Part shown: in pieces, positions 36,455 to 49,298 of the stretch | Numbering within the stretch: position 1 is the stretch's first letter | Layout: every line of letters begins with the position of its first letter | NCBI GenBank assembly: GCA_009827225.1 | Contig: WUAI01000001.1 | Location: forward strand, 1 to 64,000 | Length of the DNA stretch: 64,000 nt | Direction: 5' to 3' | DNA from: Flavobacteriaceae bacterium | GTDB taxonomy: Bacteria; Bacteroidota; Bacteroidia; Flavobacteriales; Flavobacteriaceae | Program-made: the position numbers and the translations under genes | Notes under the pieces: generated by a model | The model's database searches: none | Seen by the model: the letters and a program-made list of their open reading frames with translations, nothing else | Told to the model about the DNA's origin: nothing

Positions 36455-36597
36455 AATTTTAACACCCTGCTTGTGTTATTCTTTTCTTAAATAAACTTCG
36501 GAAGTTCAATTAATTAATACCTTCAAGTTTGAAATTTTTGGAAGAGACTAACCGGCTTCCTGAATGGTATTTCGTAACAACAACTAACCGCTCACTT

Positions 36598-39015
36598 ATG
36601 AAGATCAAATTATCGATTGCATCGCTGCTACTCCTGTTTCCATTTGTGCTATTTGCACAGTCTACTTTCAAAGTTTCCGGAAAAATTACTGATGATCAAG
36701 GCGAAGGGGTTCCTTTTGCTAATGTATTATTACTGAAATCTGCTGATTCCACCCTGGTGAAAGGAGCACTGGCATCCGATCTTGGTGATTATGTGATCGA
36801 GGACATCCCCAATGGGAATTATTTTATCCAAAGTACGGTCTTGGGGTATCAACCCTCCCAGTCCGATAGCTTTCTCTTGAATGCAGACAAAACCATTCCC
36901 ACGCTCATTTTATCAGAGGGGGAAGCCCTTGATGAGGTAGTGGTCACGGCTGCAAAACCACTATTTACTCAAAAAGTGGATCGTTTGGTCATCAATGTGG
37001 AAAGCAGTATTGTCTCCTCGGGAGGCACCGCATTGGAAGTCTTGGAACGATCTCCGGGAGTTGTGGTGAATCGTCAGAACAATAATATTTCCGTAGTGGG
37101 AAAAGATGGGGTAGTAGTTATGATCAATGGTAAAATAAGTTATGTGCCCGCCTCTTCCATCGTTCAAATGCTGGAAGGAATGAGTTCCGATAATATCGAA
37201 TCGATCGAACTCATTACAACCCCACCGGCAAATTTTGATGCAGAAGGGAACGCCGGATTTATCAATATTGTGCTAAAGAAAACCAGTGACCTCGGACTTA
37301 ACGGATCTTATTCGCTGTCTGCCGGATATGGTAAAGGGGAAACCACCAATGACAATATCAATTTCAATTATAGGAAGAACAAGGTAAATCTCTTCGGAAG
37401 TTATTCCTTCTCCATCGATAAGAGATCGCAGGTTATAAAAGCAAGTCGTGAGTTTGTGAGCAATGACACGCTCTTCTCGACCAACACCACTACCGATCGG
37501 GACCCAACGCAGCGAAATCATAATGCGCGCTTGGGATTTGACTACCAGTTAACTGAAAAAACCATCATGGGGATTTTGATCAACGGATTTGATAACCGAT
37601 GGTCCATGGATGCTTTTAATATGAGCTTTGATGCGGCCGATGGCGTACCTACCTCATTCGTAGATATCGCCAACGATGAGATCAATCAACTTAAACACTT
37701 CGGTGCGAACTATAACATCCGACACGATTTTACCGAAAATGAGTTTATAAGTTTTGATGTGGATTACCTCTTTTATGAATTTGATAACCCCACTAATTAT
37801 TCGAATATGTTCTTTGATGCCGACAGGGAATTCCTGAGGAATGAACTGCTGCGGAGTGGTAAAGAAACCCCGATTACCACTTGGGTGGGCAAACTGGATT
37901 ATAGCAATCAGTTAAGCGACAAATTAAAGATCGAGACAGGGGTGAAGGGAACTAAATCCGACTTTGAGAATGATGTTTCCGTAGATAACTTGATCGATGG
38001 CGAATGGATTCCCGACCTAACTCTTACTAATAAAAGTGTGCTCGATGAGACCATTCTTGCCGCGTATTTTGCAGGGGATTATACCCTGGATGATAAGTGG
38101 AGTATGAAAGCAGGTTTGCGATATGAATACACCGACTCACAATTGGACACCAATACCGAAGGAACGGTAGTGGATCGTCAATATGGGCTCTGGTTCCCCT
38201 CTGTGTTCCTGAACCGAAAGTTTGGAGAACATCTGAGTATGAATGTGTCTTATTCCAGAAGGATCACCAGGCCTACCTTCAACGATCTGGCTCCTTTTGT
38301 GATTTTCTTTGATCCGAATACCTTCCTGTCCGGTAACGCATCGCTGCAACCGGCTATATCCGATACATATAAATATGATATCAGTTATAAGTCGTATTTT
38401 CTATCGTTTCAGTACACCAATGAAGACGAGTCGATCGCGAACTTCCAGGAGTCTATCGATGAAGAAACAGGGCGCCTGATTTTCGAAGCCGCCAACCTGG
38501 ATTACACCCGGACGTTTTCCATCATTGCAGGTATACCTGTGAAGATCACCAACTGGTGGAGAACTCAAAACAACGGTTCGTTTATTATGCAGGAGGTACG
38601 ATCTTTTTATGATGGAGAAGCCATAGAACAGGATTTGCGCACATTCTCCTTGAATAGTACCCACTCCTTTAAGGTTTCAGATACTTTTTCGGTGGAGTTA
38701 TCCGGATTCTTTAATGGAGAAGGGTTCTTTGGATCGGCGCGTTATGATGAGGTGTACGGAGTAAACCTGGGCCTTCAGAAGAAATTCAGTGACAAATGGG
38801 GCACGTTGCGTTTTTCTATTAACGATCTACTGGATTCGATTGAATTCACAGGAGGAACCGATTTACCGGAGCAGAACATTCGTACTAGAAACCTGTTTGA
38901 TTTCAGCAACCGAACTTTTACACTTACGTATTCAAGGAACTTTGGTAACAAAGAACTGAAGTCGTCCAGAAACCGTGAAACCGGTTCTGAAGATGAGCGT
39001 CGAAGAGTGAATTAA
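36598..39015 (+). CDS. outer-membrane beta-barrel protein, TonB-receptor-like (CarboxypepD_reg + barrel)
   Basis: The start is set at 36598 (MKIKLSIASLLLLFPFVLFAQ, a proper signal peptide). The frame opens at 36529 with 23 atypical residues. 805 residues: a carboxypeptidase-regulatory-like domain (FKVSGKITDDQGEGVPFANVLL) at ~22-110, a plug-like domain (SGGTALEVLERSPGVVVN; IESIELITTPPANFDAEGNAGFINI) and then a C-terminal barrel (GLRYEYTDSQ, YSRRITRPTFNDLAPF), the outer membrane beta-barrel family 3 layout. No SusD partner is adjacent, so the ligand (peptide, metal or siderophore) is open. Confidence 0.85.
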   Translation: MKIKLSIASLLLLFPFVLFAQSTFKVSGKITDDQGEGVPFANVLLLKSADSTLVKGALASDLGDYVIEDIPNGNYFIQSTVLGYQPSQSDSFLLNADKTIPTLILSEGEALDEVVVTAAKPLFTQKVDRLVINVESSIVSSGGTALEVLERSPGVVVNRQNNNISVVGKDGVVVMINGKISYVPASSIVQMLEGMSSDNIESIELITTPPANFDAEGNAGFINIVLKKTSDLGLNGSYSLSAGYGKGETTNDNINFNYRKNKVNLFGSYSFSIDKRSQVIKASREFVSNDTLFSTNTTTDRDPTQRNHNARLGFDYQLTEKTIMGILINGFDNRWSMDAFNMSFDAADGVPTSFVDIANDEINQLKHFGANYNIRHDFTENEFISFDVDYLFYEFDNPTNYSNMFFDADREFLRNELLRSGKETPITTWVGKLDYSNQLSDKLKIETGVKGTKSDFENDVSVDNLIDGEWIPDLTLTNKSVLDETILAAYFAGDYTLDDKWSMKAGLRYEYTDSQLDTNTEGTVVDRQYGLWFPSVFLNRKFGEHLSMNVSYSRRITRPTFNDLAPFVIFFDPNTFLSGNASLQPAISDTYKYDISYKSYFLSFQYTNEDESIANFQESIDEETGRLIFEAANLDYTRTFSIIAGIPVKITNWWRTQNNGSFIMQEVRSFYDGEAIEQDLRTFSLNSTHSFKVSDTFSVELSGFFNGEGFFGSARYDEVYGVNLGLQKKFSDKWGTLRFSINDLLDSIEFTGGTDLPEQNIRTRNLFDFSNRTFTLTYSRNFGNKELKSSRNRETGSEDERRRVN

Positions 39016-39138
39016 ATTATTGCGCAATTCTCTGATTTACAGTCGTCAATGACCCAGATCATTGTTTATTTTTTTTTCTGAAAGTAGTTTTATAGTTACA
39101 AATTACATAACCTAATTAGTAACCTAAAATTATTTGAT

Positions 39139-39642
39139 ATGAGAAAGTTATTCTTGGTTGTATTTTTATTTGGTTTGACCAGCCCAATGATCGCACAGGA
39201 TCCCGTCCTATTGAGCGAAGTATTTATTTCAGTGAAAAACTATAAGTACTTAGATGCTGTCGACAATTCAGAAGCAGCTGTCCCTGTGAAGGAATTAGAA
39301 CGACAAGTAGCCATTTTCAACGCCGAAAATGAAGATGACTTGTATGTAGACAATTTTGCCACTTACAATGTGTCCTTTTATATCCCGGATGGAAAAATAG
39401 TAGCTATGTACGACGATGAAGGTAAAGTTATCAAAACCATAGAACGGTTCAAGAATGTTCAACTTCCAAATGATGTACGTAAAGCAATCTCTAAACGTTT
39501 TCCGGAATGGAAAGTTGTGAAAGACGTTTATGAAGTTAAGTACTCTGCCACTAAAGGCGCTAAGAAGTTGTACAAAGTGAAACTTAAAAATGGTAACGAA
39601 ACCATTCGCGTTAAGATCGACGAATATGGTAACTACATGTAA
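39139..39642 (+). CDS. secreted PepSY-like (BLIP-like) protein
   Basis: A 167-residue protein with a signal peptide ending PMIAQ. The C-terminal half (VRKAISKRFPEWKVVKDVYEVKY, then KKLYKVKLKNGNETIRVKID) has the helix-plus-sheet pattern of PepSY-like/BLIP-like domains of Bacteroidota, in which FPEW-type turns are common. Such domains inhibit peptidases or buffer other proteins. The target is unknown. Confidence 0.65.
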   Translation: MRKLFLVVFLFGLTSPMIAQDPVLLSEVFISVKNYKYLDAVDNSEAAVPVKELERQVAIFNAENEDDLYVDNFATYNVSFYIPDGKIVAMYDDEGKVIKTIERFKNVQLPNDVRKAISKRFPEWKVVKDVYEVKYSATKGAKKLYKVKLKNGNETIRVKIDEYGNYM

Positions 39643-40594: not shown

Positions 40595-42118
40595 ATGAAA
40601 TATTTTTTGACGGTCAGTATTTTACTGATATCGGTATCATCTTGTCAATCCCCACAAAAAGAAGATCAAAACCGCGTTCCTCCTAGCGGTGAAAAACTTT
40701 CACAAATCTATTGTGCTTCATGTCACCTCTATCCGGAACCCTCGTTGCTCGACAAAGAAACCTGGCAGAATTACATGCTACCGCGGATGGGTTATATGTT
40801 CGGGATATATCGTGATTCGACCGAAAGAACGGCCTTATTTGAATCCAACAGGGGCGGTGAATTGGTTCGTGCTTCTAATTTATTTCCTGCCGCACCCACA
40901 ATTGACAGTCTGGATTGGTTGGCTATTCAAAACTACTATTTAGAGAATGCTCCGGATACTCTTCCTTCACCTCCAGTTGCTAAAATCACAAAGACATTGC
41001 CTCAGTTCGAAGTTATAATTCCTTCTCAAAAAGTACAGGTTCCGAGTAGTACCATGGTAAAATTTTCAGAAAAAGGAGAGATCTATCTTGGTGATGCTTT
41101 AACCAGAAGTTTTACCATTTTTTCTTCTGATCTCGAGTTGATTCAAACCGGGAACGTTCAGGAAGGTGCGGTGAGCATTCATGAAACCGATAACGAATTC
41201 TGGCTCACGGTTATGGGTAGTTTCTCGCCAACAGATGCACCTGCTGGTTTAATAGCAACTCTTCCTAAAAATGCCAATGGTATCGCTTCAGTTCCTATCA
41301 CCGAACTCCAGAGGCCAGTCCATAGTAGCTATGAAGATATGGATGGAGACGGAGATACTGATGTTGTCGTTTCGGAATTTGGAAAATGGACGGGAGCTTT
41401 GTCCTTCTTCAGAAACAATAATGGCGCATATTCCAAAGAAATACTTCTGAACACTCCAGGTGCTATTAAATCTTACATTAGAGATATGAACAACGATGGC
41501 CATCCCGATATTGTGGCATTATTTGCACAGGGAAATGAAGGGATAGACATATACTTTAATGATGGTAAAGGTAATTTCAGTCGAGAACGCGTATTAAGCT
41601 TCCATCCTTCAATGGGTGGTAGCTTTATGCAATTAATTGATTTCGACAGTGACGGTCATCTCGACATTCTTTATACCGCAGGGGATAATGCCGATTATAA
41701 ACCAGTTATGAAACCGTGGCATGGAGTCTATGTTTTTCTGAATGACGGGAAGAATTCTTTCGAAGAACACTTATTTCTTCATCTCAATGGTGCCTATAAT
41801 GCCATCGCCGAAGACTTTGACGCTGATGGTGATATGGACATAGCCGCCATCTCGTTTTTCCCGGATTGGGTAAAATCTCCGGAAGAGAGCTTCGTTTTCT
41901 TTGAAAATAGGGGAGATAACCAATACGCAAGATCTACCTTCCCTGAAGTCAATTTCGGAAGATGGGTAGTAATGGACGGTGATGATTTTGACAATGATGG
42001 GGATATGGACCTAATTTTAGGATCTTTAGCCTTTGAAGTGGTACCTAAATTGGGATACGTCGAGAAATGGGTTGAAAGAGGCATCCCTTTTATTATTTTA
42101 GAGAACAAGCGCTACTAA
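40595..42118 (+). CDS. lipoprotein with c-type haem site and VCBS/FG-GAP propeller
   Basis: A 507-residue exported protein with lipobox VSSC (Cys17). A cytochrome-c motif CASCH is at residues 40-44 in a short N-terminal domain (LSQIYCASCHLYPEPSLLDK), with Met ligands possible in YMLPRMGYMFG. From ~130 to the end it is a propeller with calcium-type loops (DMDGDGDTD, DMNNDGHPD, DFDSDGHLD, DFDADGDMD, DFDNDGDMD). The fusion suggests a surface electron-transfer protein bound to a carbohydrate or protein partner. It is first in a same-strand series with a PhoX phosphatase and a di-haem peroxidase. Confidence 0.85.
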   Translation: MKYFLTVSILLISVSSCQSPQKEDQNRVPPSGEKLSQIYCASCHLYPEPSLLDKETWQNYMLPRMGYMFGIYRDSTERTALFESNRGGELVRASNLFPAAPTIDSLDWLAIQNYYLENAPDTLPSPPVAKITKTLPQFEVIIPSQKVQVPSSTMVKFSEKGEIYLGDALTRSFTIFSSDLELIQTGNVQEGAVSIHETDNEFWLTVMGSFSPTDAPAGLIATLPKNANGIASVPITELQRPVHSSYEDMDGDGDTDVVVSEFGKWTGALSFFRNNNGAYSKEILLNTPGAIKSYIRDMNNDGHPDIVALFAQGNEGIDIYFNDGKGNFSRERVLSFHPSMGGSFMQLIDFDSDGHLDILYTAGDNADYKPVMKPWHGVYVFLNDGKNSFEEHLFLHLNGAYNAIAEDFDADGDMDIAAISFFPDWVKSPEESFVFFENRGDNQYARSTFPEVNFGRWVVMDGDDFDNDGDMDLILGSLAFEVVPKLGYVEKWVERGIPFIILENKRY

Positions 42119-42443
42119 TCTGCTATTTAGACCTATTCCAGATTAGTTTGGAAATCAACGATGTAGATTATAATTCATGAACTTGGCACGAACCTCCTTC
42201 AAGCGCAATTCCTTGACTCGTGGGGGTTATCGAAAATATAGGACACAGGCCGGTTTAATATGTTCCAAACTGATGTTATCAAATAATAAATTAACAGCTG
42301 TTCAAACACAGAATTATTTAAAGATTTCATCAATCACTTAACTTTGAAATTACTTTTCTTTTAAATGCGCTTCATTTTTCCTTAACAGGGCGATTCTAGT
42401 TTTAAGTGTTTAAAAAATTTAACCTTTTAACTCAATCAAAAAG
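42119..42443. other. intergenic region before PhoX
   Basis: 325 AT-rich bases. I see no hairpin terminator and no strong promoter (TAGTTTTA at about 42398 is one mismatch from the -7 consensus). TTAACAG occurs at about 42292 and again near 42383, which could be regulator half-sites but is too short to support a claim. Confidence 0.4.
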
Positions 42444-44294
42444 ATGAAACGTACATTACTTTCAGTATTTATGGGGCTGCTAACCATCTCATTAGCTGCT
42501 CAAAACGATTTTCCCTCAAGAGTAGTTGAGGTAGACTGGGAAGCCACAGAAGTGGTGGTTCCACCTTCGCCTTTTCAATATCAGATCTTATTTATAGGAG
42601 GGGAAGACATGGTGCAAACCGGAGTGAACGAAGAAGTTCCGGCCAAACAGTGGCACGATTTTATTGGATTTACAGAAGTAACCGCAGATGATTGTGTGGA
42701 CGATCCAAATGCAATTGGGTGGATCTCAGTAAATCATGAAAGAATCCTGGCCGATGATAAAATTGGCGATGGGGGTGGAATGACTGCATTCCTTTTGGGG
42801 AGACAGCCAAGTAACGACGAACTATATGTGATTCCACAAGAGCTTACCGACGGAAGAAAAGGAGCTTTCTTCAATGTAGACTTTAGTAATGTTGGTGAGA
42901 CCGGAATGAATTGCGGTGGTATCAACTCTATCGTGGATGGAAGAATCTGGACGGCCGAAGAGTGGTTCCGTTCCAGTAACGAAAGTATCTGGGCCGATGG
43001 TAACGGGGTTCGTGATACCACAGATTATACTATTAAGTATACGGAATTCGAAATGGCCAATTTCGAAACCATTCCAAAATACCAAAACTTTAACTGGATG
43101 GTCGAGATTGATCCTCGTGCTGCTAAGGCGGTTCGTAAGCAATATAACTGGGGGCGTCAACCTTTTGAAGGTGGAACCATTGCGGCAGATAACAAGACGG
43201 TATACCTGGGCGCCGATGCAACACCTGGATTCTTTACCAAATTCGTAGCCGACACTGAAGGTGATTTCACCGTTGGAACGACTTATGTGTACAAGCACGA
43301 TGAAGCAGGAGACCCATGGGTTGAGATAAACAACGATGACTTCTCCAAAATGTTGAACTTCAAAGCCGAAGCTGTAAGTGAAGGAGCTACGATGTTCAAT
43401 CGATTAGAGTGGATCACTATCGATAAGAATACCGGTAAAGTTTATATGACAGAGACTGGTCGTGACAATCCTGGTGGAAACTGGGAAGACGAATTGGCCG
43501 ATGGTGCTGTGTTTGCACCACACCATATCCAGAGAGCAACAGACCAAGGAGTTTCTGGTCCGGACGACCCTGATTACTGGGATTACTACGGAAGAATCCT
43601 CGAATTTGATCCAGCTACCGGAGATGTGACAATTTTTGTAGAAGCAGGGCCTTACTTTACTTCAAGTCCTCCATTGGCCGACTATCCAGCAAAGCATCTT
43701 TCGAACCCAGACGGTTTAAATATGTTATACGTGAATGTAGCCGGAGAAGACAAAACCTATATGTTGATCAACGAGGACTTAAATGGAACTTCTTTCGGTA
43801 GAACTCCCTTAGAGTACCCGGATGATAGAATGTGTGAGATGTATATCCTGGATATGGAAGTTGAGAATCCTACGATCGATGATTTGATTCGATTAACTCA
43901 AACTCCTAGAGGAGCAGAAATTACCGGAGCCTGTGCAACCACAGATGGAAAGTCGGTATTGGTGAATTCACAACACCCGGATTCTGCTAATCCATTCCCC
44001 TATAACAACTCTTTGACATTCGCAATTACTGGATTTGATGATTCAGGTGCTATTGAGACCCTATCTAATCCCGATTTTGATGATATCTCAGGCGACGATT
44101 TCGTGATTTATCCAAACCCAACCGAGCGTATCGTTTATTTCAACAAAGTGGTGGATCTAGCCATATATGATATAAGCGGAAAGAGAATCGCTGTCTACAG
44201 AGATGTTAAATCAATTGATATCTCAGGATTATCACAAGGGACCTATTTGCTTAAAACAAACGAAGGAACTGCCAAGAAACTTTTAGTTAAGTAA
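42444..44294 (+). CDS. PhoX-family phosphatase with T9SS sorting domain
   Basis: A 616-residue secreted protein with a signal peptide ending SLAAQ. The body matches the PhoX/DUF839 family, a calcium- and iron-dependent alkaline phosphatase fold: IGWISVNHERIL, GINSIVDGRIWTAEEWF, FNWMVEIDPRAAKAVRKQYNWGRQPFEGG and RLEWITIDKNTGKVYMTETGRDNPGG. The end (FVIYPNPTERIVYFNK to AKKLLVK) is a T9SS type-A sorting domain, so it acts at or outside the cell surface. PhoX releases phosphate from organic esters during phosphate limitation. Many PhoX-like proteins remain untested. Confidence 0.87.
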   Translation: MKRTLLSVFMGLLTISLAAQNDFPSRVVEVDWEATEVVVPPSPFQYQILFIGGEDMVQTGVNEEVPAKQWHDFIGFTEVTADDCVDDPNAIGWISVNHERILADDKIGDGGGMTAFLLGRQPSNDELYVIPQELTDGRKGAFFNVDFSNVGETGMNCGGINSIVDGRIWTAEEWFRSSNESIWADGNGVRDTTDYTIKYTEFEMANFETIPKYQNFNWMVEIDPRAAKAVRKQYNWGRQPFEGGTIAADNKTVYLGADATPGFFTKFVADTEGDFTVGTTYVYKHDEAGDPWVEINNDDFSKMLNFKAEAVSEGATMFNRLEWITIDKNTGKVYMTETGRDNPGGNWEDELADGAVFAPHHIQRATDQGVSGPDDPDYWDYYGRILEFDPATGDVTIFVEAGPYFTSSPPLADYPAKHLSNPDGLNMLYVNVAGEDKTYMLINEDLNGTSFGRTPLEYPDDRMCEMYILDMEVENPTIDDLIRLTQTPRGAEITGACATTDGKSVLVNSQHPDSANPFPYNNSLTFAITGFDDSGAIETLSNPDFDDISGDDFVIYPNPTERIVYFNKVVDLAIYDISGKRIAVYRDVKSIDISGLSQGTYLLKTNEGTAKKLLVK

Positions 44295-44312
44295 TTTTTT
44301 TTCATTGAAACT

Positions 44313-44342
44313 ACAAACCGGACGTTCTTGCGTTCGGTTTGT
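44313..44342 (+). terminator. hairpin between PhoX and peroxidase genes
   Basis: ACAAACCGGACG (44313-44324) pairs with CGTTCGGTTTGT (44331-44342) through one G-U pair. It is followed by TTAAAT rather than a clean T run, so read-through into the peroxidase gene is possible. Confidence 0.6.
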
Positions 44343-44357
44343 TTAAATATTCGGGTC

Positions 44358-46310
44358 ATGAAGTCGGATTCAATTTTAATTTTCATCAGCTTTCTTTTAA
44401 CCTTCGTCCTTATCTCTGCGAGTAAACCCAATCAAGAGCGTAAAGGAGTTTATGTCGAAAAAGCCATAGGTAAGATCAATCAGCAGTTTCAACAAGACCT
44501 ACAGGAATTGCTTATTTACGCCAATGCCTTTGAAACCAGTGTGCGGTCATTCCAGACTACGGGTTCAAATTTTGGAAATCTGTGGGCGGATTATCAAAAT
44601 CTTCGTTCTGAATTTAAACGGATTGAATTTTTGTTGGAATACTTAGATAAGGAAGCCTTTGATAAAACTATGAATGGGGCTCCACTGCCGAAACTCGAAA
44701 AAAAAGTTGCCGATCTCAATGTTTTAGAACCTAAAGGACTGCAGGTGATCGATGAGCTGGTTGGTGAACTGAAAACAGATATATCTGTGTATGCGGAACT
44801 GGTCGAGCACAGCCAAAAATTTAGAAAAGACGTTCAGAAGATACATTCCTATTTTAAAATCCGACGAATTACTGATCGTCAATTTTTGGAAGCATCACGC
44901 CAATCCGTGGTTCGATTAATAACTCTAGGGATTACCGGATTTGATACTCCGGGAACGGCTTCGGGGATACGGGATTCCAAATCGGTATTAGAGAGTATCG
45001 ACAGCTATTTTCAGTTTTATGCCTCGGAACTTGAAAACGTGAACCGATCTGAATTCTCCTCTGAATTAAATTCCATTTGCCAAAATGGAATCATAATGGC
45101 CGAAGAGTCCACTTTTGAGAATTTTGACCGAATGCGATTTATCAAAGAGGTAGGACATCCAATTTATAAACTGATCAAAGACATTCATCTTTCTTTAGAC
45201 TATGAAACCATCGATGAAGTTTCGAAATATCCTTTGGCCATAAATTTTGAATCCAATTCTTTATTTGAAGAGGATTTTTTTAATCCGTTCTATTATATAA
45301 GTGTTCCTAACGACCCATCCTTTGATGAGGTCACAGAGCTAGGCAAGATGTTATTCTATGATCCGGTGCTTTCCTCAAACAATGAAATGTCTTGTGCCAA
45401 TTGCCACAAGCCAGAGAAAGCATTTACCGATGGCTTGAAGACCAGCTTTGCTAATGATGGAAGTGCCCTGAAGCGCAACGCTATGACGCTTAATTATTCA
45501 GGGTTTGCGACTGGGTTCTTTCATGATCTAAGAACACGGCGATTGGAGGATCAATTTGAACATGTGGTCTTGAATAAGGATGAATTCAATTCTTCTTATC
45601 AGGAAATAATCGGGAAATTAGAAAGAAGTGAAAGTTACCGGCAGCTATTTAACGACGCCTTCCCCGCACAAAAAGGTAAGATCCGATCGAATCAAATCGA
45701 TTATGCATTGGCCGCTTACGTGATGAAATTATCCCCGTTCGATAACGTGGTTGATACATATTTTCAAGGTGCGACCGATGAGATTCCAAAAGAAATTAAA
45801 AACGGATTTAACTTATTTACCGGTAAGGCCAATTGTGCCACCTGTCATTTTCTGCCCTTGTATTCCGGGCTCGTTCCACCGCTTTTTAACGAGTCGGAAG
45901 CAGAGGTATTAGGAGTGCCGGAAGACCAGGAAAAACCCTGGAGTTTGGATCCGGATCTTGGCCGACTTGGAAACGGAAAGACTCAAGAAGTAGCAACATT
46001 CTACAGAGCTGCATTTAAAACCCCAACGATAAGAAATATTGACTTAACCGGACCCTATATGCATAATGGGGTCTTTAAAACTTTAGAAGAAGTTATGGAT
46101 TTTTATAATGAAGGCGGAGGTGCGGGACAAGGTATCGAATTGGAGCATCAGACTCTAGCACCAGACAAGTTAAATCTCACTCAAAAGGAGATTCAGGACA
46201 TCATTACTTTTATGAAGTCCCTCAATGACAATACCCTTTTTAAAGCCGTCTTGGAGCTGCCTAGGGACTTTGAGAAAAATGAAATAGACAATAGGGTTTT
46301 GTTGAAATAG
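44358..46310 (+). CDS. di-haem cytochrome-c peroxidase (MauG/CcpA family) with N-terminal helical extension
   Basis: The start is set at 44358 (MKSDSILIFISFLLTFVLIS, a signal or anchor). The in-frame ATG at 44328 lies inside the loop of the preceding hairpin. 650 residues. Residues ~30-290 are helical (coiled-coil-like, LLEYLDKEAF and related segments) and absent from standard ~350-residue peroxidases. The peroxidase part has two haem sites, CANCH at 346-350 and CATCH at 493-497, and the late motif TPTIRNIDLTGPYMHNG. It reduces peroxide or oxidises a protein partner in the periplasm. It follows the T9SS PhoX gene and may share its transcript. Confidence 0.88.
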   Translation: MKSDSILIFISFLLTFVLISASKPNQERKGVYVEKAIGKINQQFQQDLQELLIYANAFETSVRSFQTTGSNFGNLWADYQNLRSEFKRIEFLLEYLDKEAFDKTMNGAPLPKLEKKVADLNVLEPKGLQVIDELVGELKTDISVYAELVEHSQKFRKDVQKIHSYFKIRRITDRQFLEASRQSVVRLITLGITGFDTPGTASGIRDSKSVLESIDSYFQFYASELENVNRSEFSSELNSICQNGIIMAEESTFENFDRMRFIKEVGHPIYKLIKDIHLSLDYETIDEVSKYPLAINFESNSLFEEDFFNPFYYISVPNDPSFDEVTELGKMLFYDPVLSSNNEMSCANCHKPEKAFTDGLKTSFANDGSALKRNAMTLNYSGFATGFFHDLRTRRLEDQFEHVVLNKDEFNSSYQEIIGKLERSESYRQLFNDAFPAQKGKIRSNQIDYALAAYVMKLSPFDNVVDTYFQGATDEIPKEIKNGFNLFTGKANCATCHFLPLYSGLVPPLFNESEAEVLGVPEDQEKPWSLDPDLGRLGNGKTQEVATFYRAAFKTPTIRNIDLTGPYMHNGVFKTLEEVMDFYNEGGGAGQGIELEHQTLAPDKLNLTQKEIQDIITFMKSLNDNTLFKAVLELPRDFEKNEIDNRVLLK

Positions 46311-46352: not shown

Positions 46353-46910
46353 ATGATTTCTGAGTTGATTCGAAGCCGTCGCGCTGTGTATCCAGCGCAG
46401 TATAATGCGCAAGCTATTTCTAAAGATGAATTGGTCTCCATCCTGGAATCGGCCAATTGGGCGCCTACCCATCGGCGCACCGAACCCTGGCGTTTTAAAG
46501 TTTTTCATACCGAAGAATCGCGGCGCAAACTGTCGGATTTTTTAGGGGAAATCTATGAGGAGACCGTTCAGCCCTTTTCCGAAGTAAAACATAAAAAAGT
46601 GATGGATAAACCGTTACAAGCAGCGTGTGTTCTTGCGATTTGTATGCAAAGGGATCCCAAGGAATCGGTTCCGGAATGGGAAGAGATCGCCGCAACAGCG
46701 ATGGCAGTTCAGAATATGTGGCTGCATGCCTCTGCTTTACATATTGGTGCTTATTGGAGCTCTCCAGCGTTAAAAGATCACCTTCACAAATTGGTGGATA
46801 TGGAAGAAGGAGAAAAGTGCCTTGGATTCTTTTATATGGGTAAATATGACGGAGAGGTTTCCGAAGGAGAACGTAAAACCAGCATCGAAGACAAGACCGA
46901 GTGGGTTTAG
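46353..46910 (+). CDS. nitroreductase-family protein (YdjA-like)
   Basis: A 185-residue FMN-dependent oxidoreductase, short like E. coli YdjA. ELIRSRRAVYPAQYN is the N-terminal FMN-phosphate-binding segment, SILESANWAPTHRRTEPWRF is the family signature, and AATAMAVQNMWLHASALHIGAYW is the dimer-interface helix. It probably acts as a homodimer on quinones or nitro compounds. The substrate is unknown. Its last 4 bases overlap the convergent DUF456 gene. Confidence 0.87.
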   Translation: MISELIRSRRAVYPAQYNAQAISKDELVSILESANWAPTHRRTEPWRFKVFHTEESRRKLSDFLGEIYEETVQPFSEVKHKKVMDKPLQAACVLAICMQRDPKESVPEWEEIAATAMAVQNMWLHASALHIGAYWSSPALKDHLHKLVDMEEGEKCLGFFYMGKYDGEVSEGERKTSIEDKTEWV

Positions 46911-47410
46911 AACAGTACTGTTCGGTACTCCCAGAAAACAAGATACAGGAATATAAACAGGTAGACTACCGTTGCAAAAAACTTGATAAAGGTGGAAGCC
47001 AGGAATCCGAAAAAGGATCCTATGGCCGCCTTAAAAGCCTGAGGGCCCTTGGTTTCATTAAATACCATTTCCCCGATGAGAGCACCCACGAACGGGCCGA
47101 TGAGGATTCCAAACGGGATAGGTGCGAATATCCCAACGATGAGTCCAATGGTGGTTCCCCATGCTCCTGCGCGGCTGCCGCCAAATTTTTTGGTTCCGAC
47201 TGCAGGGATGATATAGTCCAGAATATAAATACTGATAGCCACCACACCGGTCACAATCAGTAGCGTCCAATCAAATTCTAGGGAAGGAGCGAAGTAAAGT
47301 ACGATCAATCCCAGCCAAGAGATAGGAGTTCCGGGGATAACAGGCAAGATACTTCCGAGAATGCCAACCAGCATTAACAATAAGCCAATTACTACAAATA
47401 ATAGATCCAT
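46907..47410 (-). CDS. DUF456 membrane protein
   Basis: A 167-residue protein with about five transmembrane helices and the glycine-rich DUF456 pattern: LLMLVGILGSILPVIPGTPISWLG, AVGTKKFGGSRAGAWGTTIGLI and FGILIGPFVGALIGE. Length is normal for the family. Function unknown. It is divergent from blaI. Confidence 0.88.
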   Translation of the reverse strand: MDLLFVVIGLLLMLVGILGSILPVIPGTPISWLGLIVLYFAPSLEFDWTLLIVTGVVAISIYILDYIIPAVGTKKFGGSRAGAWGTTIGLIVGIFAPIPFGILIGPFVGALIGEMVFNETKGPQAFKAAIGSFFGFLASTFIKFFATVVYLFIFLYLVFWEYRTVLF

Positions 47411-47457
47411 ATGCAGGGCATTGGACGTGCAAATTACAAATACGTTACAAAATATTT

Positions 47458-47498
47458 AACTAAAAAATTAGTTTAAACTAAATATTTAGTTATATTTG
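47458..47498. promoter_or_regulatory. blaI promoter with two tandem AACTAA-N4-TTAGTT operators
   Basis: Two perfect palindromes AACTAA-N4-TTAGTT lie at 47458-47473 and 47476-47491, 18 bases apart centre to centre. The second ends on the first base of the -7 box TATATTTG (47491-47498). Placement across the promoter and immediately before a BlaI-family repressor gene fits autorepression. The half-site differs from the TACA/TGTA core of Gram-positive BlaI/MecI/CopY operators. Confidence 0.7.
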
Positions 47499-47517
47499 AA
47501 GCATCAATCAATTCGTT

Positions 47518-47880
47518 ATGAAACAACTCACCAAGGCAGAAGAGGACATTATGAAAATTCTATGGGATTTGGGAGAGGGCAATGTGGCTGCTATCGTAGA
47601 CCAGTTTCCAGAGCCTAAACCTGCCTATAACACTGTATCCACCATCGTTAGAATTTTAGAAAACAAGGAATTTGTCGATTATCGCAAGCAAGGAAGAGGA
47701 CATATTTATTTCCCGAAGATCCGAAAGAATGAATACAGCAATCAATCCATCAACAAACTGGTGGACGGTTATTTTCAGGGGTCATTTAAGAGCATGGTAT
47801 CCTTCTTTATGAAGAAGAACGATATCAGTATTCAGGAATTAGAAAGCATATTAAAAGACATTAATAAAGAGGAATCATGA
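47518..47880 (+). CDS. BlaI/MecI/CopY-family repressor
   Basis: A 120-residue winged-helix regulator. LTKAEEDIMKILWDLGEGNV and YNTVSTIVRILENKEFVDYRKQGRGHIYFP are the N-terminal DNA-binding domain. The C-terminal part (INKLVDGYFQGSFKSMVSFFMK) is the dimerisation and cleavage region. In the known mechanism, an M56 membrane peptidase triggers cleavage and derepression. The gene overlaps the M56 gene by ATGA, giving tight coupling. No beta-lactamase lies beside it. Confidence 0.93.
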   Translation: MKQLTKAEEDIMKILWDLGEGNVAAIVDQFPEPKPAYNTVSTIVRILENKEFVDYRKQGRGHIYFPKIRKNEYSNQSINKLVDGYFQGSFKSMVSFFMKKNDISIQELESILKDINKEES

Positions 47881-49298
47881 TTCATTATCTCATACAAACC
47901 ATCGTATTTCAAACTTTGTTCTTATTGGTATACGACCTCTTTTTAAAGCGTCAGACGTATTTCCGATGGAATCGCATTTACCTGGTAGCCACTACCGCCT
48001 TAAGCTTTATCTTGCCTTTTATTCAGCTCGCCGTGATACGGCAGAATCTCCCGGATGAATTAGTTATTCAGCTACCAACCGTTTTAATTGGTTCTGAAAC
48101 AGCAGCTTCAACGGAGACCTCGTTTTCTGTGTATAGTGTAGCACAGTGGGTATGGCTTGTTGGTAGCTTAGCGAGCTTGACTTATTTTGTTCAAAAACTA
48201 TGGAGAATTCGCCGCTTCCGATTGAAAGGGCGAATGAGTGAGCGATCCGGATATCGGCTTGTGAAGTTGCCACAATCGGACCTGGCGTTTTCGTTCTTAA
48301 ATACCATTTTTTTAGGAGAGCAACTTTCCGAAGAAAACAAAAAGAGCATTTTACTACACGAAGAGGTTCATATTCGTCATAAGCACAGTTGGGATCTTCT
48401 ATACTTCGAGACCCTGAGGATTGTATTCTGGTTCAATCCCATCATTTACCTGTATCAAAATCGTATGGGAGCATTGCAGGAATTCATTGCCGATGCCGTG
48501 GTGACGAGTCAACGAACCAAGAAGGAGTATTATCAAAATTTGCTTTCTGAAGTTTTTCAAACCGAAAATATTTCATTCATCAATACATTTTTTAATCATT
48601 CATTAATCAAAAAACGAATTCATATGTTACAAAAATCAAAATCAAGGAAAGTTTCGCAGTTAAGATATTTGCTGTTATTACCGCTATTAGGAGCCATGCT
48701 CATGTACACTTCTTGCTCTGAAGAGGTGGGACAAGATGCCAATTCAACACTGTCTGAGCAAATTGCGGATCTTACGGCTGAAATTAAAAGCAAAGAAAAC
48801 CTGACCGAAGAAGAAAAGGCTGAAATTGCCCGCATGATCCTGGAGATCTATCCCGAAGATGTGGAGGGAGTTTCAGGGGATAGAGCGCATTTTAAAAGCA
48901 AAATACACGAAGACGGAGGAAAGAACGAATTCTTCTTCCGGGAGGAAAGCCTGAACTTCAATGAGATCGATAAAGTGCCGGTATTTCCGGGTTGCGAAGG
49001 TATGAGTGGAGAAGCAGCTAAGAAGTGTTTCGTTACCAAGATCACCGAGTTTGTGGTTCAGAATTTTAATACCAAAGTTGCAGGACCTGACGTTAGCGGG
49101 AAACAACGAATTGCTGTAAATTTTGTCGTTGATAAGGATGGTACGGTATCCAATGTACTTGCAAAAGCCCAGGACCAAAGCCTGATGGACGAGGCAAAGA
49201 GAGTGGTACAACTACTTCCTACGATGGTGCCCGGAGAGCATGAAGGAAAAAAGGTAGGAGTGCAATTTGCATTACCGATCATTTTTCAAATGGAATAA
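47877..49298 (+). CDS. M56 (BlaR1-like) membrane metallopeptidase with TonB-type C-terminal domain
   Basis: A 473-residue protein. N-terminal transmembrane helices frame a cytoplasmic zinc peptidase domain with HEEVH at 161-165 (HExxH) and a probable third ligand in QEFIADAVVT near 206. A later helix (YLLLLPLLGAMLMYTSC) leads to a periplasmic part ending in an ~90-residue TonB-C-like domain (VPVFPGCEG, QRIAVNFVVDKDGTVSNVLA, PTMVPGEHEGKKVGVQFALPI). In place of BlaR1's penicillin-binding sensor domain it carries a TonB-like domain, common in Bacteroidota. The signal is unknown. Confidence 0.92.
   Translation: MIHYLIQTIVFQTLFLLVYDLFLKRQTYFRWNRIYLVATTALSFILPFIQLAVIRQNLPDELVIQLPTVLIGSETAASTETSFSVYSVAQWVWLVGSLASLTYFVQKLWRIRRFRLKGRMSERSGYRLVKLPQSDLAFSFLNTIFLGEQLSEENKKSILLHEEVHIRHKHSWDLLYFETLRIVFWFNPIIYLYQNRMGALQEFIADAVVTSQRTKKEYYQNLLSEVFQTENISFINTFFNHSLIKKRIHMLQKSKSRKVSQLRYLLLLPLLGAMLMYTSCSEEVGQDANSTLSEQIADLTAEIKSKENLTEEEKAEIARMILEIYPEDVEGVSGDRAHFKSKIHEDGGKNEFFFREESLNFNEIDKVPVFPGCEGMSGEAAKKCFVTKITEFVVQNFNTKVAGPDVSGKQRIAVNFVVDKDGTVSNVLAKAQDQSLMDEAKRVVQLLPTMVPGEHEGKKVGVQFALPIIFQME

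Follow-up and report, generated by a model that had tools for sequence, protein, structure and literature searches.

An M75–MauG-type peroxidase fusion encoded beside non-Tat PhoX and other phosphatases in Bacteroidota

A 64,000-nucleotide stretch of Flavobacteriaceae bacterium DNA (contig WUAI01000001.1, positions 1 to 64,000; hereafter the window) encodes a PhoX-type phosphatase followed by an extended di-haem peroxidase, in which a MauG/MbnH-type enzyme is fused to an N-terminal M75-like domain. Genes for such fusions were found to lie beside phosphatase genes at most loci, key residues are kept in both proteins of the pair, and the PhoX proteins concerned are those without a twin-arginine translocation (Tat) motif. 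We consider it quite possible, if short of probable, that the 650-residue fusion is a dedicated periplasmic iron-oxidation and insertion partner of ferric phosphatases exported unfolded. A first-pass annotation, made from the sequence alone, had proposed a three-gene surface module that included an upstream cytochrome/VCBS lipoprotein; only two of the three genes, those for PhoX and the extended peroxidase, form a module.

Linkage to phosphatases and the export route of PhoX

The neighbourhoods of 120 extended peroxidase genes were compiled from two sets. The first comprises 41 of the 43 distinct full-length places detected across 149 genomes from the window's family (G061 and G010 were left out), and the second takes the best 80 of at least 542 relatives in named genomes, from which one near-copy (L083) was removed to leave 79. 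Neighbours were counted with trimmed profiles at a 50-bit threshold. An initial profile for one PhoX subfamily (c2) had also caught type IX secretion system (T9SS) tails, as in L087; this profile was cut back to its PhoX domain, the purple acid phosphatase (PAP) profile was shortened, and the untrimmed counts were discarded. The PhoX, PAP and PF04185 profiles were partly learnt from these same neighbours, and 17 partner proteins besides that of the window were verified against Pfam.

A phosphatase lies within one gene of the extended peroxidase at 106 of the 120 loci (35/41 and 71/79) and within two genes at 112 (37/41 and 75/79). Six-frame searches of the remaining eight placed PhoX in open-ended frames next door at L037 and L043, a weak PhoX-like match next door on the other strand at L135 (3e-9, 31 bits), a PF04185 gene three genes away at L118 and a PAP seven open reading frames (ORFs) away at L045; masked bases (N) at L041 and L090 and a contig edge at L149 put these three loci beyond judgement. 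Of 40 short di-haem peroxidases drawn from the same sample of the phylum, none has a phosphatase within two genes (0/40), with fewer than two ORFs on one side at 4/40 of these control loci and 6/120 fusion loci. The median partner-to-peroxidase gap is 69 bp for c1 PhoX (60 cases) and 74 bp for c2 PhoX (19 cases). Within the genus, PhoX and the peroxidase lie side by side in 3/8 relatives, and neither is present in the other five, three of which are 76-82% complete. Tandem pairs of extended peroxidases occur at L037, L041 and L043, with a very large PhoX-containing open frame adjoining in L037 and L043, while L135 and L149 come from metagenome-assembled genomes labelled Fibrobacteres and Gemmatimonadaceae, outside Bacteroidota.

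The partners comprise two PhoX subfamilies (c1 and c2), PAPs (PF00149 with PF16656) and PF04185 phosphoesterases. The c1 proteins are mostly lipoproteins, encoded in 60 cases at position -1 to the peroxidase; c2 proteins carry T9SS tails in those scanned and are encoded before or after it. Two of three c1 representatives show no PF05787 match, and the assignment of c1 to PhoX rests on the third representative, on six c1-length genes beside the fusion that pass the cut-off, and on kept residues. Partner type changes at least six times on a quick peroxidase tree (116 labelled of 120 rows; support by Shimodaira–Hasegawa-like approximate likelihood ratio test only), which argues that the linkage is not merely inherited gene order. 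Phosphatases of different folds thus seem to have replaced one another beside the peroxidase; the PF04185 partners form one supported group on this tree. At L116, a single extended peroxidase is located between a histidine phosphatase (PF00328) and a PAP.

In PAPs, Fe3+ is ligated by a tyrosine (PMC4223295; this and the other papers given by PMC number are cited from excerpts of their text). The corresponding motif GDNAY occurs in 11/11 PAPs of fusion loci and 0/19 other PAP-type proteins from 20 regions of our own choosing. The motif was rejected as a mark exclusive to linked PAPs, as a direct search found the same subfamily to be mostly unlinked. For PF04185, an RR or RK motif is present in 11/20 unlinked proteins and RR in 1/8 full-length linked ones. 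A clean Tat/Sec split for this family was likewise set aside as incomplete, since unlinked proteins with signal-like N-termini exist and one linked protein has RR.

The export route of PhoX itself was compared across the phylum. A PF05787 search of 392 genomes returned 79 rows. Once 10 second pieces and nine weak partial rows (E 1.8e-6 to 9.6e-4, in eight frames) had been set aside, 60 genes remained; three retained rows beside a fusion (G317, G476 and G344) are equally weak. The 29 strongest proteins (E below 1e-60) are canonical, with RR in 22, RK in six and no motif in the called start of one, and none of the 29 has an extended peroxidase nearby (6-8 kb of sequence around each). In contrast, 26 of the 31 divergent PhoX genes are linked to a fusion, 25 within 2 kb and one at 6.3 kb, while one of the five unlinked genes lies on a 3.1-kb contig (Fisher p = 2.5e-12, uncorrected for kinship, as are the following values). 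Leaving out the six c1-length genes gives 20/25 linked (p 1.7e-10), and adding the eight dropped frames as unlinked gives 26/39 (p 2.9e-9). A fusion is held anywhere in the genome by 1/29 genomes with canonical PhoX and 27/31 with divergent PhoX, counts that may miss some copies, as at most three candidates were scored per genome in these fusion and PF05787 scans. Among PhoX proteins from the fusion loci, the strict RR motif occurs in 0/86 and the RR/RK pattern in 3/86 (10 long PhoX left out). TatC was detected in 22/22 tested genomes with linked PhoX, and Tat export is therefore available to them. The linked PhoX are probably exported through Sec, to judge from the absent Tat motif.

The control loci and the Tat split both bear on another account, in which the two genes are only co-regulated and the peroxidase guards the periplasm or iron handling from peroxide, or drains electrons, in phosphate starvation without touching the phosphatase. 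Phosphate depletion does induce both Fjoh_2478 (12.50) and Fjoh_2477 (9.58), the comparable genes of Flavobacterium johnsoniae (PMC8115612, Table 1), and two further CCP_MauG proteins in the window's genome, in frames of 356 and 480 residues, indicate that this enzyme class has other uses. However, none of the 40 short peroxidases has a phosphatase beside it, and co-regulation alone does not predict that the fusion should track non-Tat but not Tat-type PhoX; we regard this account as distinctly unlikely.

Architecture of the fusion and its PhoX neighbour

The product of gene 3, the extended peroxidase gene, was modelled with AlphaFold from its own sequence together with those of 77 relatives (mean predicted local distance difference test score, pLDDT, 93.4). 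Its C-terminal domain most closely resembles 6e1c, a MauG-like protein that we take to be MbnH (Z 33.6, root-mean-square deviation (rmsd) 2.3 over 315 residues). In each CxxCH motif the two cysteines and the histidine are invariant in 78/78 extended peroxidases, as are Q399, E409 and Y583, which align with MauG Gln103, Glu113 and Tyr294 (MauG numbering verified via the P107V residue of 3svw). The Tyr294 position is presumably Tyr in enzymes of the MauG/MbnH type and Met in classical peroxidases, and we likewise assume distal-pocket roles for Gln103 and Glu113. The invariance and alignment of these residues thus argue for a peroxidase of MauG/MbnH type, not a Met-ligated one. The NCBIfam cut-offs for MauG (TIGR03791, 155.7 versus 443.85 bits) and the MbnH family (TIGR04039, 179.7 versus 362.85 bits) are not reached, and by these sequence criteria the protein is a member of the MauG/MbnH superfamily, not an orthologue.

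The first-pass annotation had rightly recognised a helical addition of ~260 residues; there are about 280 extra N-terminal residues, indeed helical in the model, and their M75/EfeM fold had gone unnoticed. Residues 30-284 match Algp7 (3at7, Z 24.1), EfeM (7q1g, Z 24.0) and EfeO (7wgu, Z 23.9) with an rmsd of 2.6-2.7 and 10-11% identity across 234-235 residues; Z scores to imelysin-like proteins are 21.0-22.4. Across the M75 fold matches (3at7, 7q1g, 7wgu, 3pf0, 7xrx and 4ecg), Z is 21-24 and the aligned length 234-255 residues. A profile made from 40 of the family's N-terminal domains ranks Algp7, EfeM and EfeO first among PDB sequences (E 1.2e-5 to 6.1e-5; next row 0.028), which indicates a match beyond fold alone. 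Pfam Peptidase_M75 (PF09375) is matched by 12 of the 40 members at E up to 1 (best 3.7e-5) and was not matched by the window protein itself in the Pfam search. When profiles were compared, 14 flavobacterial imelysins matched the domain at a probability of 61% (E 8e-5), and GLQVIDE was aligned over GYHAIEF. Hence, the extension is an EfeO/EfeM/imelysin (M75) domain.

The window phosphatase, encoded by gene 2, scores 91.6 bits against PF05787 (cut-off 24; 8.7e-26), in keeping with the PhoX identity first proposed for it. It has no RR/RK motif, and an N-terminal signal peptide was judged by eye; together with the C-terminal sorting domain, this conforms to T9SS type A cargo, as the first-pass annotation had also proposed. 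Its AlphaFold model (mean pLDDT 84.5) matches Pseudomonas fluorescens PhoX (4a9v/3zwu) with Z 28 (28.3 to 4a9v) over 422-424 residues. Ten residues (D72, N97, E99, C157, E242, D258, E322, D423, D445 and E492) are identical in 115/115 PhoX proteins (60 c1, 26 c2 and 29 Tat). C157, E242, R320 and E322 align with Cys179, Glu273, Arg385 and Glu387 of 3zwu, which we take to be active-site residues of PhoX. At position 281, numbered as in the window protein, 93% of c1 and 85% of c2 proteins from the fusion loci have Tyr, and 93% of Tat PhoX have Gln.

A possible role in iron-centre maturation

The PhoX cofactor consists of two Fe3+, three Ca2+ and an oxo bridge, and insertion of its iron before Tat export has been offered as speculation (PMC4223295). 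In our proposal, the phosphatase would cross the inner membrane unfolded via Sec and, unlike Tat-exported PhoX, which is thought to do so, could not load iron in the cytoplasm. In the periplasm, the M75-like domain would hold the client or the client's iron, and the di-haem peroxidase would oxidise Fe(II) to Fe(III) with peroxide; one H2O2 would oxidise two Fe(II), suiting a diferric site. This would fill and lock the ferric site, namely two Fe(III), the oxo bridge and three Ca(II) in PhoX, and tyrosinate–Fe(III) in PAP. The folded enzyme would then leave by T9SS or stay as a lipoprotein. c-type haem is attached outside the cytoplasm. We infer physical contact between fusion and phosphatase, iron oxidation by the former and a need for it in the activity of the latter. 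A more general proposal, that M75-MauG fusions form an extracytoplasmic metallation factor for ferric phosphatases, is put forward tentatively. Such a factor would oxidise iron and place it in phosphatases that leave through Sec and belong to at least three unrelated folds, so that a step which other bacteria complete inside the cell thanks to Tat export would here take place outside the membrane.

The main rival is modification of the MauG/MbnH type, in which a bis-Fe(IV) peroxidase would oxidise one or more phosphatase residues, and activity would depend on the resulting protein-derived cofactor or cross-link. This would be close to a suggestion made in PMC8812569, and it draws on the nearest structure being MauG-like and on the invariant equivalents of MauG Tyr294, Gln103 and Glu113. 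On the phosphatase side, the distribution of Y281 makes it the sole candidate residue found by sequence comparison; besides this non-invariant position, a scan at ~85% conservation yielded no oxidisable residue common to both linked subfamilies and absent in Tat PhoX. Furthermore, clients from at least three unrelated phosphatase families have no single residue context in common, and the surface Trp199 of MauG is replaced by alanine in the window protein. We consider residue modification unlikely. Iron oxidation and insertion are preferred because the PhoX and PAP clients share ferric iron and not sequence, because the partner is found only with non-Tat PhoX, and because an M75 domain with a haem peroxidase reproduces the EfeO-EfeB arrangement.

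Several observations weigh against iron-centre maturation, among them the state of the M75-like domain. EfeM binds metal through HxxE (Site III) and ExxE...D (Site IV) motifs (PMC9174327). In the extended peroxidases, EfeM His126 is replaced by Q129 (78/78), Glu90 by K87 (78/78) and Asp107 by N106 (77/78), while Glu93 corresponds to E90 (73/78), Glu129 to E/D132 (77/78) and Glu189 to D196 (77/78, one Glu). The canonical M75 ligands are thus not found, nearly all of the 78 proteins having QxxE/D, KxxE and N instead. Although the pocket is conserved, these altered ligands make canonical iron binding by the domain doubtful. The phosphatases provide further points. Some linked PhoX have Gly or Lys at the Arg385 equivalent (R320 in the window protein), and no fusion is linked to four divergent PhoX genes that lie on longer contigs (L190-L192 and L194). 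In the direct search of the linked PAP subfamily (30 loci, the best matches in 40 of 197 genomes from the class), the fusion is absent from the flank (about 1.5 kb or less) in 28/30, and GDNxY is present in 29/30; the linked PAPs are, by their motif, of the ferric type, yet ferric-type PAPs do not appear to need the fusion gene next door. Several non-Tat PF04185 proteins (L241-L244 and L246; signal-like N-termini by eye) also occur without a linked peroxidase. The metal of the PF04185 family is given as unsettled (PMC9837106), and Fjoh_2477 is given as predicted cytoplasmic (PMC8115612).

Conserved basic residues of the M75-like domain (R83 in 72/78, K87 in 78/78, R186 in 73/78 and R258 in 75/78) could bind an anion, as would suit a substrate-side role in which the fusion oxidises phosphorus-bearing matter (ferric-phosphate, humic or phosphonate material) and the phosphatase then frees phosphate from it. 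Such a role would explain one neighbour common to phosphatases of unrelated fold, but it leaves unexplained why the fusion avoids Tat-type PhoX. To our knowledge, no enzyme of the superfamily acts on substrates in this way, and we consider it very improbable.

Locus layout, known systems and significance

The three same-strand genes of the first-pass annotation are all present as ORFs, and their individual assignments were borne out. Gene 1 has a lipobox (...VSSC), one CASCH haem site and FG-GAP_3/VCBS repeats (PF13517, 9.8e-27), and gene 3 is a di-haem peroxidase with two CxxCH motifs. Gene 3 runs to 660 residues from a TTG start in the ORF list and to 650 from the ATG at 44358. The gaps are 325 bp between genes 1 and 2 and 63 bp between genes 2 and 3, and a genome search found a single PF05787 match in the window's genome.

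Table 1 Features of the phosphatase–peroxidase locus in the window.
Feature	Position	Strand	Details
Gene 1: lipoprotein; single c-haem site (CASCH), FG-GAP/VCBS repeats	40595..42118	+	507 aa
CASCH haem-attachment site of gene 1	40712..40726	+	read directly in sequence
Gene 2: PhoX-type phosphatase with non-Tat signal peptide, propeller-type PhoX domain and T9SS sorting tail	42444..44294	+	616 aa
PhoX domain, gene 2 residues 41-540	42564..44063	+	
T9SS type A sorting domain, gene 2 residues 555-614	44106..44285	+	PF18962 (Por_Secre_tail) 2e-9, TIGR04183 7.8e-9
Gene 3: extended di-haem peroxidase, M75/EfeM-like domain and MauG/MbnH-type peroxidase, signal-peptide-like N-terminal helix	44358..46310	+	
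EfeO/EfeM/imelysin-fold domain, gene 3 residues 30-284	44445..45209	+	structure and profile matches
Di-haem peroxidase domain, gene 3 residues 303-633	45264..46256	+	6e1c Z 33.6, CCP_MauG 2.1e-41
First haem site CANCH, gene 3	45393..45407	+	sequence
Second haem site CATCH, gene 3	45834..45848	+	sequence

The inclusion of gene 1 did not hold. Neighbourhood analysis in Bacteroidota, which the first-pass annotation had named as a check, finds PhoX and peroxidase co-located and gene 1 seldom beside them: a cytochrome/VCBS lipoprotein is near the pair at just 6/120 loci (all of c2 type, once on the other strand) and in one of the three same-genus relatives that hold the pair. The three-gene module was rejected on these counts. 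The lipoprotein is accessory, and may be a putative electron-transfer helper. The redox-linked phosphatase maturation first suggested for all three genes is thus consistent with the conserved PhoX-peroxidase pair and finds no support for gene 1 as a member.

Downstream (46353-49298), the PhoX-peroxidase pair is flanked by genes for a nitroreductase and a DUF456 protein and by two genes resembling BlaI/M56 (by eye), and the same gene clusters flank it at L032, L039 and L042. The order differs in L039 and L042, with the peroxidase followed by PhoX and then a leucine-rich-repeat protein, and alternative versions of the PhoX-peroxidase pair seem to occupy a single chromosomal site. This ~300-residue leucine-rich-repeat protein follows another c2-type PhoX form (L038, L039, L040, L042, L044, L047 and others) and is found near the fusion at 15/120 loci. 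Upstream on the same strand (36529-39642) are a TonB-dependent receptor (OMP_b-brl_3) and a 167-residue protein with a weak PepSY-like match.

The closest known arrangement is that of Flavobacterium, where Fjoh_2478 and Fjoh_2477, matched here by description, place a PhoX-type phosphatase beside a MauG-like peroxidase. It is reported that in every Flavobacterium genome phoX shares its operon with a MauG-like gene, that PhoX may need the MauG-like protein, and that F. johnsoniae PhoX is inactive in Pseudomonas putida (PMC8812569; Lidbury et al. 2022). Whereas the Flavobacterium PhoX is described as a lipoprotein, that of the window is T9SS cargo from another PhoX subfamily; the excerpts of PMC8812569 and PMC8115612 make no mention of an M75 domain, other phosphatase partners or a Tat/Sec split. 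The pairing of an M75 fold with a haem peroxidase recalls EfeO-EfeB of the EfeUOB/EfeM iron uptake systems, and proteins joining an imelysin-like to an EfeB-like domain were pointed out in 2011 (PMC3143127). The window protein differs in that its peroxidase is of the CCP_MauG family (PF03150), its M75 metal ligands are replaced and its neighbour is a phosphatase. With MauG, 6e1c (MbnH, as we assume) and BthA it shares the fold (Z 28 to 34), two CxxCH motifs, Tyr at the MauG Tyr294 place and distal Gln and Glu, but these have neither the N-terminal M75-like domain nor the phosphatase neighbour, and MauG Trp199 is missing from the window protein. The window PhoX, in turn, shares the fold and most active-site residues of Tat-exported P. 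fluorescens PhoX, but lacks the Tat motif, carries a T9SS tail and is linked to a peroxidase.

The open-access literature searched contained no report joining imelysin with PhoX, or PhoX with cytochrome c peroxidase in Bacteroidetes or Flavobacteria; for PhoX with MauG, only the two Lidbury papers (PMC8812569 and PMC8115612) were relevant among the matches listed, and the same held for MauG with alkaline phosphatase in Bacteroidetes. MauG and imelysin occur together in two papers, both on Leptospira. The statement in the first-pass annotation that such a link had not been described therefore needs amending, since the need of PhoX for a MauG-like neighbour had been proposed in PMC8812569. As far as these searches go, the identity of the M75 domain, the breadth of the linkage, the non-PhoX partners and the export-route split are new. 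Many TatC-bearing Bacteroidota carry PhoX without a Tat motif, and a partner that follows only such PhoX makes the acquisition of the ferric centre directly testable. If the proposal is true, a dedicated partner would explain the inactivity of Flavobacterium PhoX in P. putida.

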